The notes below the pieces were generated by a model that was not told the origin of the DNA, did no database searches, and saw nothing but the letters and a program-made list of their open reading frames with translations. Below are positions 33,428-40,777 of a stretch of DNA of 57,278 bases, piece after piece. The translations under genes and the position numbers were made by a program. The DNA lies in contig CAIPWR010000154.1 of NCBI GenBank assembly GCA_903868795.1, positions 1-57,278 on the forward strand. The letters run 5' to 3'. Origin of the DNA: an uncultured Spartobacteria bacterium (lineage in GTDB: Bacteria > Verrucomicrobiota > Verrucomicrobiia > Chthoniobacterales > UBA6821). The first letter of the stretch is position 1, and each line of letters begins with the position of its first letter.

Positions 33428-34690
33428 TCAGCGATCGCATTCTCCGAATACCATGTCGACCGACCCCAAGATCGCGACGAGGTCACCGATCATATTACCG
33501 GGAAGCAGCTTTGGTAGGATGCTCAGGTTGACGAAGGACGGGGCGCGGATGTGAAGGCGGTTAGGAACTCCTCCACCCAAGCTGTTGATGTAGAATCCGA
33601 GCTCTCCCTTGGGGTTCTCGCAGCTGGAATAGACTTCGCCTGCGGGGGCATCGATGCCCTCGGTGGTGATGATGAAGTGGTGGATGAGCTGCTCCATCTT
33701 CTGCAGGACGTCATCCTTGGGAGGGAGGGTGCTCTTTCCATCGACCACATTGATCGGGCCATCGGGCATCGTATCAATAGCCTGGCGCAGAATCCTGAGG
33801 CTCTGACGCATCTCCTCGATGCGGACGAGGTAGCGATCGTAGCAATCACCGACAGTGCCCACCGGGATATCGAAGTCGTACTTGTCGTAGTCGAGGTAAG
33901 GATGAGCCTTGCGAACATCGTATTCGACTCCCGAGCCGCGGAGCATTGGTCCGGTCAGGCCATAGGCGATCGCATCTTCGCGTGAGATGACGGCGATGTT
34001 CTTGGTGCGGTCCATGAAGATCGGATTACGGGTCAGGAGATTGGAGATCTCGTTGAGTGCAATCGGGAAGGAATCAAGAAACTCACGAAGTTGCGCGGGG
34101 AATTTCTCCGGCAGGTCGCGCACTTGGCCGCCGACGCGGGTGTAACTTGTCGTGAATCGTGCACCCGTCAGAAGCTCGCAGAGATTGTAGATCTTCTCGC
34201 GCTCCGTGAAGGTGTACATGAAAACGGAGATCGCTCCGATATCCATGGAGCTGGCACCAAGGCCGAGCAGGTGGGCGGAGATGCGGGCAAGCTCGCAGCA
34301 GATCACTCGGATTGCCTTGCCACGGGCAGGGAGTTCCCAGCCCATGAGTTTCTCAACAGCAAGGGCGTAGGCGACGTTGTTGGCCAGCGGAGCGAGGTAA
34401 TCGAGACGATCCGTGTAGGGAACGAACTGATTGTACTGCATGTTCTCCGCGATCTTCTCGTCGCCGCGGTGCAGGTAGCCGATCTCTGGCTTCGCTTTGG
34501 TGATTACTTCGCCGTCGAGATCGAGAACGATACGGAACACTCCATGAGTGGAAGGGTGCGAGGGACCGAAGTTCAGGGACATCGTTTCTCCCAGTAGTTC
34601 ACTGGCGGGGAGATGGGCTCCATGCTCTTGGATAGCTTGTTGGGTTCGACCCAGTGCGTCTGGTGCTTCGTAGATGGTGCTCGTGCTCAC
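33428..34690 (-). CDS. nuoD: NADH-quinone oxidoreductase subunit D
   Basis: This 420-residue protein is the 49-kDa subunit lining the quinone site of complex I. Typical stretches are LNFGPSHPSTHGVFRIVLDL, PEIGYLHRGDEKI, LLTGARFTTSYTRVGGQVRD, the SSCENPKGELGFYI region, and the C-terminal GSVDMVFGECDR, which is the normal end. No other nuo gene lies within the window on either side, so the gene stands apart from the usual nuoA-N cluster. It is followed upstream by tRNA-Ile2. Confidence 0.96.
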   Translation of the reverse strand: MSTSTIYEAPDALGRTQQAIQEHGAHLPASELLGETMSLNFGPSHPSTHGVFRIVLDLDGEVITKAKPEIGYLHRGDEKIAENMQYNQFVPYTDRLDYLAPLANNVAYALAVEKLMGWELPARGKAIRVICCELARISAHLLGLGASSMDIGAISVFMYTFTEREKIYNLCELLTGARFTTSYTRVGGQVRDLPEKFPAQLREFLDSFPIALNEISNLLTRNPIFMDRTKNIAVISREDAIAYGLTGPMLRGSGVEYDVRKAHPYLDYDKYDFDIPVGTVGDCYDRYLVRIEEMRQSLRILRQAIDTMPDGPINVVDGKSTLPPKDDVLQKMEQLIHHFIITTEGIDAPAGEVYSSCENPKGELGFYINSLGGGVPNRLHIRAPSFVNLSILPKLLPGNMIGDLVAILGSVDMVFGECDR

Positions 34691-34780
34691 GGGAGTGGAT
34701 TAAAGACGATGGTTGGATTGCTTTCCAGCTTTCTTGAGTTTTTCTTGAGTTGGACAGGAACTCTTTTTTTCGGGAAGAAG

Positions 34781-34853
34781 TAGGGGCACCTGGATTTGAA
34801 CCAGGGACCAACCAGTTATGAGCCGGCTGCTCTAACCGCTGAGCTATACCCCC
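34781..34853 (-). tRNA. tRNA with CAU anticodon, probably tRNA-Ile2
   Basis: The cloverleaf is complete: acceptor GGGGGTA with TGCCCCT and discriminator A, D-arm AGCTCAGCGGTTAGAGC, anticodon loop CTCATAA (CAT), T-arm CTGGTTCAAATCCAG. No CCA is encoded. The variable/T-arm stretch TTGGTCCCTGGTTCAA resembles Ile2 (lysidine-modified) more than elongator Met, but Met cannot be excluded by eye. Confidence 0.9.
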
Positions 34854-34983: not shown

Positions 34984-36027
34984 TCAGGGTGTCGTCAGGT
35001 GATTCCTTGTGTCAGACGGGTTGATGCAGTGGATTTCGACATGCCTGATTTTTCCACCTCGAGAGATGGTCATGGGAACTTTCTCGCCGGCCGTGAGGTA
35101 AAAAGAGGCTTCGAGCACTTGGTCTGGTTGCGTGATTCGATGGTTGCCAAAGACAAGAATCATATCTCCGGATCTCAGTCCGGCGGATTCGGCGGGGCTT
35201 CCCGGTTCCACCGAAGCGATCCGGGTGATGGAGTTTCCCTCAGGCACGGCAGCCTCTTCCACGACCGCACCCACCCATCCTGGGTTGAGTTGGCCGAAGC
35301 GAAGCAGGTCGGTGTTGAGTTTTTCGATCGCTCCCACAGGGAGGATTCGGCAATCACCGGACGCTGTTTTTTCTGCCAGGATCATTCCGATTAGGTGGTC
35401 GTCGAGATCGAAGGCAGGAGATCCCGCCTCTCCCTCAGTGAGCGGAATTTTAGCAATATTTTGCGGCACGCGGAAGTAGCAGTCCCCCTCGTGACTCCTT
35501 GTCCCCGTAATCATGCCGACCGAGATGGAAGGCTCCTCCTCCTTGGAGTACCCGATGGAAAGTGTGGGGCTGAAAGCTAATGGTGTGGGGGTGGCGCGGA
35601 GAGGGAGGAAATTTTCACCGGCGCGCGTCATTTCCCCGCTGAGTTTGAGAAAAGCAGCTCCGCTTCCTTCATCAAGAGCCAGGATGTTACAGGGGTACTC
35701 CTTCCCATCCTTCACGATCACGATGGAATCCAATCCCTTGACCAGATCGGCCGCCGTGCAGATCGTGCCGGACGGGTCGACAAAAAAACCTGTTCCATAG
35801 AGTTCGCCACGGGCATCCGCACCACGCACTCTGACGACAGCTCCCGAGCGCAGCTTACTTGTCGATTGGATTGCCGAAGTTACCCTAGTGGTGAGGGAGG
35901 GAGTCTCTGCTAACCCTCCGATGGTGAGGGGCGAAGCGGAGAGCGGGACCGCGAGAAGAGGCAGTACCACGAGCCTCTTCAGGAGAGCTAATGATTGGGC
36001 TCGATCAGAAACTGAGCGGCGATTCAT
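34984..36027 (-). CDS. HtrA/DegP-like PDZ protein lacking the catalytic triad
   Basis: This 347-residue exported protein has a signal-like hydrophobic stretch near residues 16-32. A trypsin-like domain (GTGFFVDPSGTICTAADLV to EGEAGSPAFDL) is followed by a PDZ domain (ASVEPGSPAESAGLRSGDMI). Aligned to DegP, the catalytic His is Asp94, the Asp is Gly123 and the Ser is Ala201, so all three are missing. It is probably a pseudoprotease that binds peptides or regulates a partner. It overlaps the upstream anti-sigma-like gene by 23 nt, and the sigma factor leads the operon. Confidence 0.82.
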   Translation of the reverse strand: MNRRSVSDRAQSLALLKRLVVLPLLAVPLSASPLTIGGLAETPSLTTRVTSAIQSTSKLRSGAVVRVRGADARGELYGTGFFVDPSGTICTAADLVKGLDSIVIVKDGKEYPCNILALDEGSGAAFLKLSGEMTRAGENFLPLRATPTPLAFSPTLSIGYSKEEEPSISVGMITGTRSHEGDCYFRVPQNIAKIPLTEGEAGSPAFDLDDHLIGMILAEKTASGDCRILPVGAIEKLNTDLLRFGQLNPGWVGAVVEEAAVPEGNSITRIASVEPGSPAESAGLRSGDMILVFGNHRITQPDQVLEASFYLTAGEKVPMTISRGGKIRHVEIHCINPSDTRNHLTTP

Positions 36028-36478
36028 GGTTCGCCGGACGGGCTGGCAAAAGGTACGAAGAGGGGAAGGTGAGGGGGCTGCTCTGAGGTGGAGGTTGGGG
36101 GAGGTTGAGGCCGGAGGGATCGACTCGTAGCGAGACCGGTTGCATGTTCTGGATGGTCACCGGTACCTGAGAGTAGGGGAGCGTCGAGGTGTAGGAGACG
36201 GAGTAGGCGCGGGGTGCATCCTGTCTCGGTGTTTCGCGGATGATGGCAACGCTGGCGATCACGGCGACTGCAGCCGCGCCGGCAAAGGCCATGGCTGGCA
36301 CCCTTAATTCGGGAATCAAGCCCGACAAACGCTCCATGATTAATGCCGAGAGTGAGGGCTTGAGAAGTTCCGCACGCTGGCGTCGGTGAAACTCGCGCAG
36401 AAAGTCCTCGTAGTACCCCTCGGGTGGCTGTTCGTAGCGCTTCAGTTTGATGATCTTGTGCATCGGTTCGTAACTCAT
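36005..36478 (-). CDS. probable single-pass anti-sigma factor
   Basis: This 157-residue protein has a basic cytoplasmic N-terminus of about 60 residues (HKIIKLKRYEQPPEGYYEDF, then REFHRRQRAELL). One membrane helix (VPAMAFAGAAAVAVIASVAI, about residues 60-80) and a Pro/Ser-rich outer part follow. The topology matches RseA-type anti-sigma factors and the gene follows an ECF sigma gene by 30 nt, but no zinc-binding HxxxCxxC motif is present. I infer the role from position and topology. Confidence 0.6.
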   Translation of the reverse strand: MSYEPMHKIIKLKRYEQPPEGYYEDFLREFHRRQRAELLKPSLSALIMERLSGLIPELRVPAMAFAGAAAVAVIASVAIIRETPRQDAPRAYSVSYTSTLPYSQVPVTIQNMQPVSLRVDPSGLNLPQPPPQSSPLTFPSSYLLPARPANHESPLSF

Positions 36479-36508
36479 GCCGGATTCTTTCAGGTGAGTG
36501 ATTCCTTT

Positions 36509-37105
36509 CTAGTTCCTCTTAAACTCATGAAGGGAGTTTTGCAACTGGCGGTGAGCATAAAAGAGGCGCGAGCGTACTGTTCCCTCGGAGATTTTGAGGA
36601 TTTTGGCGATTTCGGCATGGGGTATTCCTTGGATATCGAACATGGTTACGACGATTCTATGGTCGTGAGACAGCTTCTGCATGGAAGCGTTCAATTTTTT
36701 TTGAAGCTCATGGATCGAAACTTCCTTGGTCGGGTCTCCATTGCTGGTAGCAGCGATGAAATCCGGGTCGTTCTCGATGTTGCTGTCGGGATCGTTCAGG
36801 CTGGGATGCTGGCGACGGTTCCTCCTCTTGAGGAAATTGATCGTCATGTTGACCGCGATCGAGTGCATCCAGGTATAGAAGCTCGAGTTGCCGCGGAAGT
36901 TCACAATCGATCGGTAGGCCTTCGAAAAAATATCCTGCAACAAATCGTTGGTATCCTCGTGGTTGGAGGTCATGTGATAGACCAACCCATAGAGCCGGGG
37001 GGAATACTTGACGATCAGTTCATCAAACGCCCCCGGGTCACCCCCCTGGGTGCGTGCGACCAATTCCTGGTCATTATTCTGAAGGGGTTCCAGTTCCGCG
37101 GACAT
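36509..37105 (-). CDS. ECF RNA polymerase sigma factor (RpoE-like)
   Basis: This 198-residue sigma factor starts at ATG 37105, preceded by AGAGGA; the frame extends upstream without protein-like sequence. Region 2 is visible (GDPGAFDELIVKYSPRLYGL, then DLLQDIFSKAYRSI and WMHSIAVNMTINFLKRR). Region 4 has a helix-turn-helix (IPHAEIAKILKISEGTVRSR). It would direct polymerase to envelope-stress or similar promoters. It heads the sigma, anti-sigma, HtrA-like operon, an arrangement like rpoE-rseA-mucD in Proteobacteria. Confidence 0.92.
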   Translation of the reverse strand: MSAELEPLQNNDQELVARTQGGDPGAFDELIVKYSPRLYGLVYHMTSNHEDTNDLLQDIFSKAYRSIVNFRGNSSFYTWMHSIAVNMTINFLKRRNRRQHPSLNDPDSNIENDPDFIAATSNGDPTKEVSIHELQKKLNASMQKLSHDHRIVVTMFDIQGIPHAEIAKILKISEGTVRSRLFYAHRQLQNSLHEFKRN

Positions 37106-37286
37106 GATGAAGAATCCTCTGTCTAACAGGTGAGGGCAGATGGGGGAATTGCTTTCCTGCGAAAAGTTGGATTTCTGAAAAAAAGGGAGGCCCCCGGAAT
37201 TTAGTGGATAAAATTGATGGATGATGGTGCCTAGACACTCTCTGAGTCCTTGTTTTCTTGGAGTCTCCCGTCTATAACATTTGCCC

Positions 37287-38033
37287 ATGACTCGTCCGGC
37301 TACCTCATCGAAAAAATCCTGCGGTCGCTGCATGCCGCTCTTTTCAAGCCCTATTGGACGCAAATGGATCGTCGCGCTGACCGGCATTGTTTTGGTTCTT
37401 TTCGTGATCGGGCATCTCTTGGGTAACCTCTCAATCTTTGCCGGTCCTGATGCGATGAATGCCTACGCGGCCTTTCTGAAGAGCACAGGAGAGCTTCTGT
37501 GGGTCGTACGCATTGTTCTGCTGACCTGCGTGGTGCTCCATATCTGGTTCACGATCACCCTCTGGCGCGAGAATCTCGCTGCCCGTCCCCAGAAATATGC
37601 GGTGAAGAATGAGCTTGGCACCACGGTTTACGCCCGCCTCATGAGGATCTCGGGACTGACTGTTCTGGCCTTCGTCCTCTACCACCTTGCCCAGTTTACC
37701 TGGGAGGCCTTCAATCCGGAGTACAAGACTTGGATCGATGCCCAGGGACGTCATGATGTCTATCGAATGGTCGTGACCGCGTTTGAATGTCCGTTTGTGA
37801 GTGGTTTTTACATTCTCGCCGTTGGGCTCCTCGGCATGCATCTGAGCCACGGGATCGCGAGTCTTTTCCAGACCCTAGGCATCACGACCGAGAAGATGCG
37901 TCCTGTTTTTGAAAAGGGTGGTCTGATCGTGGCCTGGATCATCTTTCTCGGCTTCGCCTCCATCCCGACGGCCGTTCTCTTGGGATTGGTGAAGACCTCC
38001 TCGACTCTCCCTGCCTGCCCCTTTTGCCACTAA
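37287..38033 (+). CDS. sdhC: succinate dehydrogenase cytochrome b subunit
   Basis: This 248-residue membrane subunit belongs to the b558 class that has both haem-bearing halves in one chain. Five membrane helices carry candidate haem histidines in GIVLVLFVIGHLLGNL, VLHIWF, VLYHLAQF, and MHLSHGIASLFQ. ATG 37287 is chosen over TTG 37281. It anchors SdhA and SdhB and passes electrons to menaquinone or ubiquinone. The gap to sdhA is 33 nt. Confidence 0.92.
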   Translation: MTRPATSSKKSCGRCMPLFSSPIGRKWIVALTGIVLVLFVIGHLLGNLSIFAGPDAMNAYAAFLKSTGELLWVVRIVLLTCVVLHIWFTITLWRENLAARPQKYAVKNELGTTVYARLMRISGLTVLAFVLYHLAQFTWEAFNPEYKTWIDAQGRHDVYRMVVTAFECPFVSGFYILAVGLLGMHLSHGIASLFQTLGITTEKMRPVFEKGGLIVAWIIFLGFASIPTAVLLGLVKTSSTLPACPFCH

Positions 38034-38066
38034 TCGAAACTAGTAACGAACCTTTCTACCCCGCCC

Positions 38067-39980
38067 ATGATTCTTGATGCCAAAATCCCCGAAGGTCCGA
38101 TCGAGAAGAAGTGGACCTCGTTTAAGAACAACGCGAAGCTGATTAGCCCCGCAAACAAGCGTAAGTTCAAAGTCATTGTCGTCGGCACCGGTCTCGCCGG
38201 TTCCTCCGCATCCGCTACACTTGCCAAACTTGGTTATCAGGTGGAGACCTTCTGCTTCCATGACAGTGCCCGCCGCGCCCACTCGATCGCAGCGCAGGGT
38301 GGCATCAACGCCGCAAAGAACTATCAGAATGATGGTGACAGCGTCTGGCGCCTCTTTTACGACACGATCAAGGGGGGTGATTTCCGTGCCCGCGAAGCCA
38401 ATGTCTACCGTCTCGCTGAAGTCAGTGGCACTATCATCGACGAGTGTGTCTCCCAAGGCGTTCCCTTTGCCCGAGAATATGGCGGAGAACTTACGAACCG
38501 CTCCTTCGGTGGCGCTCAAGTCTCACGCACTTTCTATGCGAAGGGGCAGACCGGCCAGCAGCTCTTACTCGGCGCCTACTCCGCATTGAGCGCCCAGATT
38601 GGCCTCGGTCGTATCAAGATGCATGAGAACTCCGAGATGCTTGACCTCGTGCTTGTCGACGGCCATGCCAAGGGGATTGTCGTCCGTGACCTAGTCACTG
38701 GTGAGATCACGACCCATGCGGCCGATACCGTCCTTCTCTGCACCGGCGGTTATAGCAATGTCTACTATCTCTCCACGAATGCCCGTGGCTCGAATGTCAC
38801 CGCCACCTGGCGTGCCTACAAGCGCGGCGCCGCTTTCGCGAATCCCTGCTACACCCAGATCCACCCGACTTGCATTCCGGTCGCCGGTGACTACCAGTCG
38901 AAGCTGACCCTCATGTCCGAGTCGCTCCGTAACGACGGACGTGTCTGGGTTCCGAAGAAGCAGGGTGACACCCGTCTTCCACAAGAGATTCCCGAGGAAG
39001 AGCGTGATTACTACCTCGAGCGAAAGTACCCCAGCTACGGCAATCTCGCTCCCCGCGACATCGCCTCCCGCAGTGCCAAGGAAGTCTGCGACGAGGGACG
39101 GGGCGTTGGTCCCGGCGGACTTGGTGTTTATCTCGATTTCTCCGCTGCCATCGCCCGACTGGGTGAAAAGACCATCCGCGAGCGCTACGGCAACCTCTTT
39201 GAGATGTATCAGAACATCACCGGCGAGAGCGCCTACGAGCGTCCGATGCGTATCTATCCCGCAGTTCACTACACCATGGGTGGACTCTGGGTGGACTACA
39301 ACCTCATGAGCACCATCCCGGGACTTCATGTTCTGGGTGAGGCCAACTTCTCCGACCATGGTGCCAACCGCCTCGGAGCCTCGGCGTTGATGCAGGGACT
39401 CTCCGACGGTTACTTCGTGATCCCGAATACCCTCGGTGAGTACCTCTCCACCCAGTTTGGCAAGAAGGTCTCCACCGACATGCCCGAGTTCAAGAAGACC
39501 GAGGAGGAGGTCCGCGCTCGTGTGGAGAAACTCTTGGCCGTGAAGGGCAATGTCCCTGTCGACGAATTCCACCGCCAACTCGGACTCATCATCTGGGATG
39601 AATGTGGCATGGCCCGCAGCGAAGAGGGTCTTAAGAAGGCGATTACGGATATCCGTGCCCTGCGTGAGCGCTTCTGGAAGGAAGTCGCCATTCCCGGCAC
39701 CGGTAAGGAGCTGAATCAATCCCTCGAGCGCGCCGGCCGCGTGGCCGATTTCCTCGAGTTCGGTGAACTCATGTGCATCGACGCCCTGACCCGCGAAGAA
39801 TCGTGCGGTGGTCACTTCCGTATCGAGCACCAGACGCCTGAAGGCGAAGCGCTTCGCCATGACGACAAATTCGCCGAAGTCTACGCCTGGATGTTCCAAG
39901 GTGAAGGGAGCCAGCCGGAGCTTGTCAGGGAACCGCTTCACTACGAGGCCGTCCATCTCGCCACCCGCAGCTACAAGTAA
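38067..39980 (+). CDS. sdhA: succinate dehydrogenase flavoprotein subunit
   Basis: This 637-residue catalytic subunit oxidises succinate to fumarate. It has an N-terminal dinucleotide fold ([20 protein letters not shown]), the FAD-attachment region [15 protein letters not shown], the substrate-site [12 protein letters not shown] and [16 protein letters not shown]. Its length and the sdhC-A-B order fit the enzymes of Bacteroidetes, Chlamydiae and Verrucomicrobia. Both flanking sdh genes lie within 35 nt, so this is one operon. Confidence 0.97.
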
Positions 39981-40009
39981 TCGCCGACACCCCTACAAGA
40001 CTTACGATC

Positions 40010-40777
40010 ATGAGCACCATGAATTTTCATCTCAGACTCTGGAAGCAGAAGTCCGCCGCCGATAAGGGCGAATTTATCAAGATTCACGCCACGGAAATCC
40101 CCTCGGAGTGCTCTTTTCTCGAGATGCTCGATATCGTCAACAACCGCCTCACGAGGGAGGGTAAGGAGCCGGTCTCCTTTGCCAGCGATTGCCGTGAGGG
40201 AATTTGCGGAACCTGTCATATGGTGATCAACGGTGTTCCCCAAGGACCTGGCCGCGGAGCAGCCTGCCAGGTCTACATGCGTAAGTTCGAGAATGGCCAG
40301 ACCATTACCGTGGAGCCCTTCCGTGTCGGCGCCTTCCCGATTGTGAAGGATCTTGTGGTCAACCGCAGCGCCTACGACCGGATCATTCGTTCCGGTGGTT
40401 TCATCTCCGAGCACACGGGCGGTGCACCTGATGCCTCAACAACCCTTATTCCCAAGCCTGTGGCCGATGCTGCCATGGATGCCGCCGCCTGCATCGGCTG
40501 CGGGGCCTGTGCCGCCGCCTGCCCGAACAGTTCCCCCATGCTCTTCGTCGGCGCCAAGGTCACCCATCTCGGACTCCTGCCCCAGGGACAAGCCGAGCGC
40601 AAGAGCCGTGCCCGCAACATGGTCCGCACCATGCAGGAGGAAGGCTTCGGCAACTGTTCCAACTACTACGCCTGCGAGGCTGTCTGCCCTGCGAATGTCC
40701 CGGCCAGCGTCATCGCCATGCTGAATCGCGAGTATATCCGTGGAGAGGTAAGCGAATCAGTCGGCGCAATCGACTGA
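40010..40777 (+). CDS. sdhB: succinate dehydrogenase iron-sulfur subunit
   Basis: This 255-residue protein carries the electron wire of the complex. The plant-type [2Fe-2S] site is CREGICGTCHMVING; the two ferredoxin-like clusters are seen at CIGCGACAAACPNSSP and CSNYYACEAVCPANVP. It is the last gene of sdhCAB, and a short dispersed repeat follows its stop. Confidence 0.97.
   Translation: MSTMNFHLRLWKQKSAADKGEFIKIHATEIPSECSFLEMLDIVNNRLTREGKEPVSFASDCREGICGTCHMVINGVPQGPGRGAACQVYMRKFENGQTITVEPFRVGAFPIVKDLVVNRSAYDRIIRSGGFISEHTGGAPDASTTLIPKPVADAAMDAAACIGCGACAAACPNSSPMLFVGAKVTHLGLLPQGQAERKSRARNMVRTMQEEGFGNCSNYYACEAVCPANVPASVIAMLNREYIRGEVSESVGAID

Follow-up and report, generated by a model that had tools for sequence, protein, structure and literature searches.

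The usual picture of an envelope-stress sigma switch is that of a proteolytic cascade set off by an active HtrA protease. The closest described systems, RpoE-RseA-RseB/DegS of E. coli and AlgU-MucA-MucB/AlgW of Pseudomonas, share with the locus described here an ECF sigma factor and a putative or established single-pass anti-sigma factor, and in both of them a periplasmic HtrA-family protein reads hydrophobic C-termini through its PDZ domain (excerpt of PMC8545111), as we propose for the present locus. DegS and AlgW are active proteases, with the PDZ ligand constituting the stress signal in the form of the C-terminal end of an outer membrane protein (OMP) or of MucE. According to the same excerpt of PMC8545111, the PDZ domains of DegS and AlgW accept large hydrophobic residues at positions 0 and -2, as in YQF and WVF. 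A like gene order of sigma factor, anti-sigma factor, and HtrA is present in M. tuberculosis (sigE, rseA-htrA-tatB), in which HtrA is an essential serine protease, tatB is the next gene, and sigE is not co-transcribed with rseA, as described in the excerpted text of PMC10027907.

The locus analyzed here lies in a 57,278-nucleotide stretch of DNA (the window) from the genome of an uncultured Spartobacteria bacterium (2.77 Mb, 169 contigs). The first-pass annotation had described a sigma factor gene followed by genes for a membrane protein and an HtrA-like PDZ protein, and the recomputed coordinates agree with this arrangement. The three genes encode an ECF sigma factor of 198 amino acids (P0003; 36509..37105, minus strand), a putative anti-sigma factor that is a single-pass membrane protein of 157 amino acids (P0002; 36005..36478, minus strand), and an HtrA-like pseudoprotease with a PDZ domain of 347 amino acids (P0001; 34984..36027, minus strand). 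The sigma and P0002 genes are separated by a gap of 30 nt (36479-36508), and those for P0002 and P0001 overlap by 23 nt (36005-36027). The same three-gene order was seen again in most of the homologous loci retrieved. The surrounding genes are ordinary neighbors: a gene for the 49-kDa subunit of complex I (33428-34690, minus strand), a tRNA-Met gene (34780-34853, minus strand), and a divergent succinate dehydrogenase cluster (37281-40777, plus strand).

P0003 matched the Pfam models Sigma70_r2 (E = 1.4e-15) and Sigma70_r4_2 (E = 1e-10), and it scored above the cut-off for the NCBIfam sigma70-ECF model (103.6 bits). Only regions 2 and 4 were above the cut-offs, without region 3, which is the ECF layout, and the sigma proteins of loci from the same genus showed 82-93% identity to P0003. 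A promoter-like element, GGAAAG-N22-CTGTTA (37124..37157, minus strand), is located upstream of the sigma gene and is kept in most same-genus loci, with GGAAAG being present in 13 of the 15 upstream regions and TGNTA in 14 of 15 as counted by eye. The pattern matched once within the window, compared with an expectation of 0.01, and autoregulation of the sigma gene through this element is possible. A genome-wide search for GGAAAG-N21-23-CTGTTA yielded matches at the sigma gene and at one other place, with one match for the reversed control, and no regulon for this pattern emerged from the search.

P0002 did not match any family above the cut-off in Pfam or NCBIfam. Its gene adjoins an ECF sigma gene in nearly all loci retrieved, however, and the protein has the layout of a membrane anti-sigma factor, with a cytosolic N-terminus followed by one helix. 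The N-terminal segment (residues 1-60; 36299..36478, minus strand) is rich in Lys and Arg and contains the motif KLKRYEQPPEGYYEDFLREFHRRQR, and we propose that it is the sigma-binding part on the basis of its invariant residues (E16, P18, F26, R33, Q34, R35, and R50; n = 37). It precedes a single hydrophobic membrane helix, which was read from the sequence at about residues 61-80 (36239..36298, minus strand). Relatives of P0002 in family f18 contain a zf-HC2 domain, the usual zinc anti-sigma domain, in four of four proteins tested, with two of the matches being above the cut-off. In these f18 loci (L106, L123, L125, and L145), the zf-HC2 domain is N-terminal and precedes the class-wide motif, and the motif is therefore separate from the zinc anti-sigma domain. 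The combination of layout, gene neighborhood, and family f18 relatives makes it very probable that P0002 has anti-sigma activity. One anti-sigma homologue (L208, 2547-3533) carries the cytosolic motif twice in tandem ahead of the membrane helix.

The closest PDB relatives of P0001 are HtrA proteases, and its named relatives are from Spartobacteria and Chthoniobacterales metagenome-assembled genomes. P0001 matched Trypsin_2 from end to end (profile positions 1-144 of 144, E = 2e-15) and matched both PDZ_6 (7.7e-10) and PDZ_2 (1.1e-8) above their cut-offs, and Trypsin_2 and PDZ_2 were matched in 35 of 35 order members tested. The trypsin-like domain (residues 78-215; 35383..35796, minus strand) is followed by the PDZ domain (about residues 250-332; 35032..35280, minus strand), an arrangement that places the protein in the HtrA/Deg family by descent. 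A signal-like stretch at the N-terminus, read by eye, indicates that P0001 is apparently exported. The PDZ loop W251-V-G253-A254 (35266..35277, minus strand), which aligns with L-G-I of M. tuberculosis HtrA1, presumably binds the ligand carboxylate. Pfam gave no match to a MucB/RseB domain, and the match of P0001 to the MamO model was weak (E = 0.0019, far below the cut-off). AlphaFold2 prediction for P0001 together with three relatives (four rows) gave a mean pLDDT of 31.

The His, Asp, and Ser residues of the catalytic triad had been claimed to be replaced in P0001 by D94 (35746..35748), G123 (35659..35661), and A201 (35425..35427; all minus strand), and alignment with three triad-bearing HtrA-type proteins encoded in this genome placed these residues in the corresponding columns. 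We examined 84 operonic orthologues in this manner, comprising the window protein, 43 order loci, and 40 others from loci of other class families and from further order members. His was present at its column in 0 of 84 sequences, Asp in 0 of 84, and Ser in 2 of 84; not one of the 84 had an intact triad, and none had two of the three residues together. The His column was occupied by S, D, E, T, A, G, Y, L, V, R, P, or I, the Asp column by G (64 sequences), R (14), N (4), or S (2), and the Ser column by G, A, I, P, V, L, or M in addition to the two S residues. Shifting the alignment would not bring the catalytic residues back. T91 and D119 do not vary among the 35 order sequences, and D119 was found in 95, G202 in 98, and P204 in 94 of 98 class-wide rows; given the conservation of these neighboring residues, the alignment register is fixed, and a triad recovered by a register shift was ruled out. 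In family f15, the trypsin-like part has diverged so strongly that the triad columns are uncertain. The column of residue 189 (about 35461-35463, minus strand), which is near the substrate-pocket strand, contains His in 66 of 98 orthologues, often within TTH, and Gln in P0001 of the window.

The P0001 orthologues are members of the HtrA/Deg family that lack the triad by which the family is defined as proteases, and the alignments indicate that catalysis was lost long ago while the fold was kept. Given the absence of the triad, cleavage of the anti-sigma factor by P0001 in the manner of DegS or AlgW is not expected, and P0001 would be unable to act by cutting as do DegS, AlgW, or MucD. The earlier proposal is thus supported in part, namely for a conserved dead PDZ protease tied to a sigma/anti-sigma pair, whereas sensing of misfolded peptides and shielding or exposure of the anti-sigma factor by this protein are possible further steps.

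Of the 213 genomes from the order, 186 contained a relative of P0002; the corresponding numbers were 285 of 384 for a class sample and 93 of 387 for a phylum sample, with the two matches outside the class both being weak (E = 2e-4 and 4e-4). Within the samples searched, the system is essentially confined to one verrucomicrobial class, and it extends to genus g47 of family f15. P0001 relatives of some kind were present in 209 of 213 order genomes, a number that includes ordinary HtrA proteins. The search revealed no P0002 relatives on plasmids, and a scan of viral contigs revealed no relatives of the pseudoprotease. On the basis of this distribution and the lack of plasmid or viral relatives in these searches, the system looks chromosomal and vertically kept. 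Given the wide occurrence of P0002 in the order and class and the recurrent gene order, the operon and the loss of the triad are, as judged from the sequences compared, neither chance nor decay. A relocated pseudoprotease was also sought in 16 genomes without an operonic copy; 20 loci were retrieved from part of the matches, 18 of which contained an open reading frame with at least one active-type motif and look like ordinary HtrA, and relocation was rejected as an explanation for them.

The strongest clue to the function of the pseudoprotease, and one that was absent from the first-pass annotation, is the PDZ-ligand-like C-terminus of P0002. The conserved tail of this protein (residues 138-157; 36008..36067, minus strand) ends in -ESPLSF-COOH, and we propose it as a PDZ ligand on the basis of its invariance, its co-occurrence with the PDZ gene, and a control for gene overlap. 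L144 and F157 are invariant (n = 37), and the consensus for the order is roughly YVL--RPVSYESPLSF-COOH, following a variable linker. We surveyed the tail in 139 distinct loci, a non-random set obtained from the matches listed in the order and class searches and from 40 of the 57 genomes of another search, and related its final residue to whether a PDZ pseudoprotease gene follows immediately downstream. All 98 loci with the PDZ gene had a tail ending in F, Y, or M (F in 88, Y in 7, and M in 3). With the gene absent, such an end was found in 12 of 41 loci (F in 11 and Y in 1), the last residue of the other 29 being P, R, N, K, Q, H, or E. The other two proteins encoded at these loci served as controls: a C-terminal F, Y, or M occurred in none of the 97 pseudoproteases and in 6 of the 139 sigma proteins. 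Fisher's exact test gave a p value of 4e-20 for the table before one locus was corrected, a value that relatedness among the loci makes far too small. Overlap of the two reading frames was ruled out as the cause of tail conservation, given that all 18 loci with non-overlapping frames also had a tail ending in F (13), Y (3), or M (2).

According to our own reading of the sigma tree, there are about ten separate places at which the PDZ gene is absent. The hydrophobic end has gone in six of these places (f35, L102, L108, f4-g6, f15-g151, and the 16-row clade L195-L215), with the exception of a single Y-ended tail in f35, and the terminal F is retained in the other four (f1-g2, f24, L109, and L148). 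Loss of the hydrophobic end with the PDZ gene kept was observed in none of the surveyed loci. An independent-pairs test, which was underpowered, provided seven supported pairs, of which about 2.3-2.7 pointed the same way, 0.0 pointed the opposite way, and the rest showed no difference. Because 11 of the 41 loci without the PDZ gene still have an F-ended tail, the terminal F either serves other purposes or outlives its PDZ partner. In L112, L113, and L138, which belong to f1-g2, the sister genus of that of the window, the PDZ gene is missing, the tail is still F-ended, and the next gene appears by eye to encode a binding protein of a branched-chain amino-acid-type ABC transporter. In f24 (L196, L197, L219, L223, L227, and L229), the anti-sigma reading frames are 312-339 amino acids long with a much longer periplasmic part, and the tails end in -KF or -TF without a PDZ pseudoprotease downstream; these tails are perhaps read by another PDZ protein.

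The form of the tail resembles that of ligands for HtrA-type PDZ domains, which have a large hydrophobic residue at position 0 and often one at position -2. Among the 98 loci with the PDZ gene, position -2 was occupied by L, F, Y, I, V, M, or W in 72 and by Q or R, unlike classical OMP ends, in 20. On the side of the PDZ domain, the loop G was kept in 97 of 98 loci, and the loop W was found in 85 of 88 F-ended loci and in 4 of 10 Y- or M-ended loci. These counts suggest that the PDZ loop and the tail end co-vary, although the exceptions are clustered in a few clades. Given that the ligand-like C-terminus co-occurs with the PDZ protein, the first ligand of this PDZ domain is probably the anti-sigma tail, and we consider binding of the tail by the PDZ domain of P0001 to be probable. 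The anti-sigma tails end in -LSF, -YSF, -FRF, -LAF, and similar sequences, and BamA ends in -GYTF in the genome of the window as well as in 13 of 13 full-length copies in the genus. If the PDZ domain does hold the tail, the likeness of these ends would make OMP tails its natural competitors, although we regard such competition only as a tentative suggestion.

These observations sharpen the reading of the locus to a putative anti-sigma factor with an OMP-like PDZ-ligand end and a dead HtrA protein with a kept PDZ groove, which are conserved together. We propose, with a probability of roughly 0.6, that the pseudoprotease acts without catalysis, as a PDZ co-regulator gripping the anti-sigma tail in a sigma switch of the envelope-stress type. 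The ECF sigma factor would be held by the cytosolic N-terminal segment of the single-pass anti-sigma factor, which would comprise this sigma-binding segment, one membrane helix, a variable periplasmic linker, and the conserved tail. Through its PDZ domain, the exported dead HtrA protein would grip the anti-sigma factor by its free C-terminus, which has the OMP-like form hydrophobic-x-F-COOH, a role comparable to that of the RseB or MucB co-regulator. Unfolded OMP C-termini, being similar in appearance, could displace the tail from the PDZ domain, and its release would affect how stable or how active the anti-sigma factor is. The exposed anti-sigma factor might then be cut by another, active periplasmic protease, resulting in release of the sigma factor. 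The genome also encodes HtrA-type proteins with an intact triad, and an RseP-like site-2 protease was not recognized among the two PF02163 open reading frames inspected (259 and 288 amino acids). Overall, the sequence comparisons suggest that the switch works through gripping rather than cutting. The full version of this scheme, in which the anti-sigma factor's own mimic of an OMP end sits in the PDZ groove of the dead HtrA protein until increasing amounts of OMP tails displace it and so set off the switch, is somewhat doubtful.

Among other explanations, the likeliest is that the pseudoprotease acts as an adaptor that promotes degradation rather than blocking it, either by forming mixed oligomers with an active HtrA protein or by presenting the tail to such a protein. 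HtrA-family proteins work as oligomers, the genome contains triad-bearing HtrA-type proteins that could be partners, and such an adaptor would account equally well for the co-occurrence of the tail and the PDZ gene. A precedent is provided by MamO, which activates proteolysis by MamE without itself cutting (excerpt of PMC4794232). The sequences do not separate an adaptor from the co-regulator that we favor, but the operon contains no gene for an active HtrA protein, the data give no sign of a mixed oligomer, and we consider the adaptor unlikely. Somewhat less likely still is that P0001 serves envelope proteins as a PDZ chaperone and simply shares a transcript with its regulator, with the tail being a degron for another protease. 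HtrA proteins can be chaperones, sigma operons often include their own targets, and the terminal F is retained in 11 of the 41 loci that lack the PDZ gene, whereas this explanation does not predict that the tail is hydrophobic wherever the PDZ gene is present and loses that end only where the gene is absent, nor does it predict the co-variation of loop and tail. That P0001 is still a protease with substitute catalytic residues is highly improbable, given that, although the window protein has Ser203 two residues beyond the lost Ser and most orthologues have His at the residue 189 column, none of the three triad columns is preserved and the substitutes differ between clades, the residue 189 column is Gln in the window protein, and many orthologues have Ala or Gly at residue 203.

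The theme of sigma factor, anti-sigma factor, and HtrA is known, and the variant with a dead HtrA protein appears to be new. We found no description of an HtrA pseudoprotease tied to a sigma/anti-sigma pair in the open literature searched, and studies of ECF classification may tabulate the neighborhood. A paper on stlA and salt tolerance was considered as a lead and discarded, its excerpted text being unrelated to the system. A dead HtrA protein that is found class-wide beside a matching PDZ-type tail constitutes a natural experiment on what the scaffold of PDZ and protease domains does without cutting, and it allows predictions at the level of the peptide, involving one residue, one peptide, and one domain. 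If OMP ends do compete with the tail in a switch that works without cutting, then, relative to E. coli, the anti-sigma factor would have taken over the PDZ ligand and the protease that does the sensing would have turned into a pure receptor, with such a design having been maintained over much of a bacterial class.

The nearest counterpart outside sigma regulation is MamO of magnetotactic bacteria, which is likewise a member of the HtrA family with a degenerate active site and noncatalytic roles (excerpt of PMC4794232). Unlike P0001, however, MamO serves magnetite formation, has a TauE-like domain, and is not linked to a sigma factor. The role that we propose for P0001 is similar to that of RseB and MucB, whereas a match to the MucB/RseB domain is absent. 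In both the E. coli-type and M. tuberculosis systems, the HtrA partner has been described as an active protease, whereas in the window it is dead. Compared with DegS and AlgW, the HtrA protein of the window is not only dead but also encoded inside the operon, and the ligand-like end is borne by the anti-sigma factor itself.
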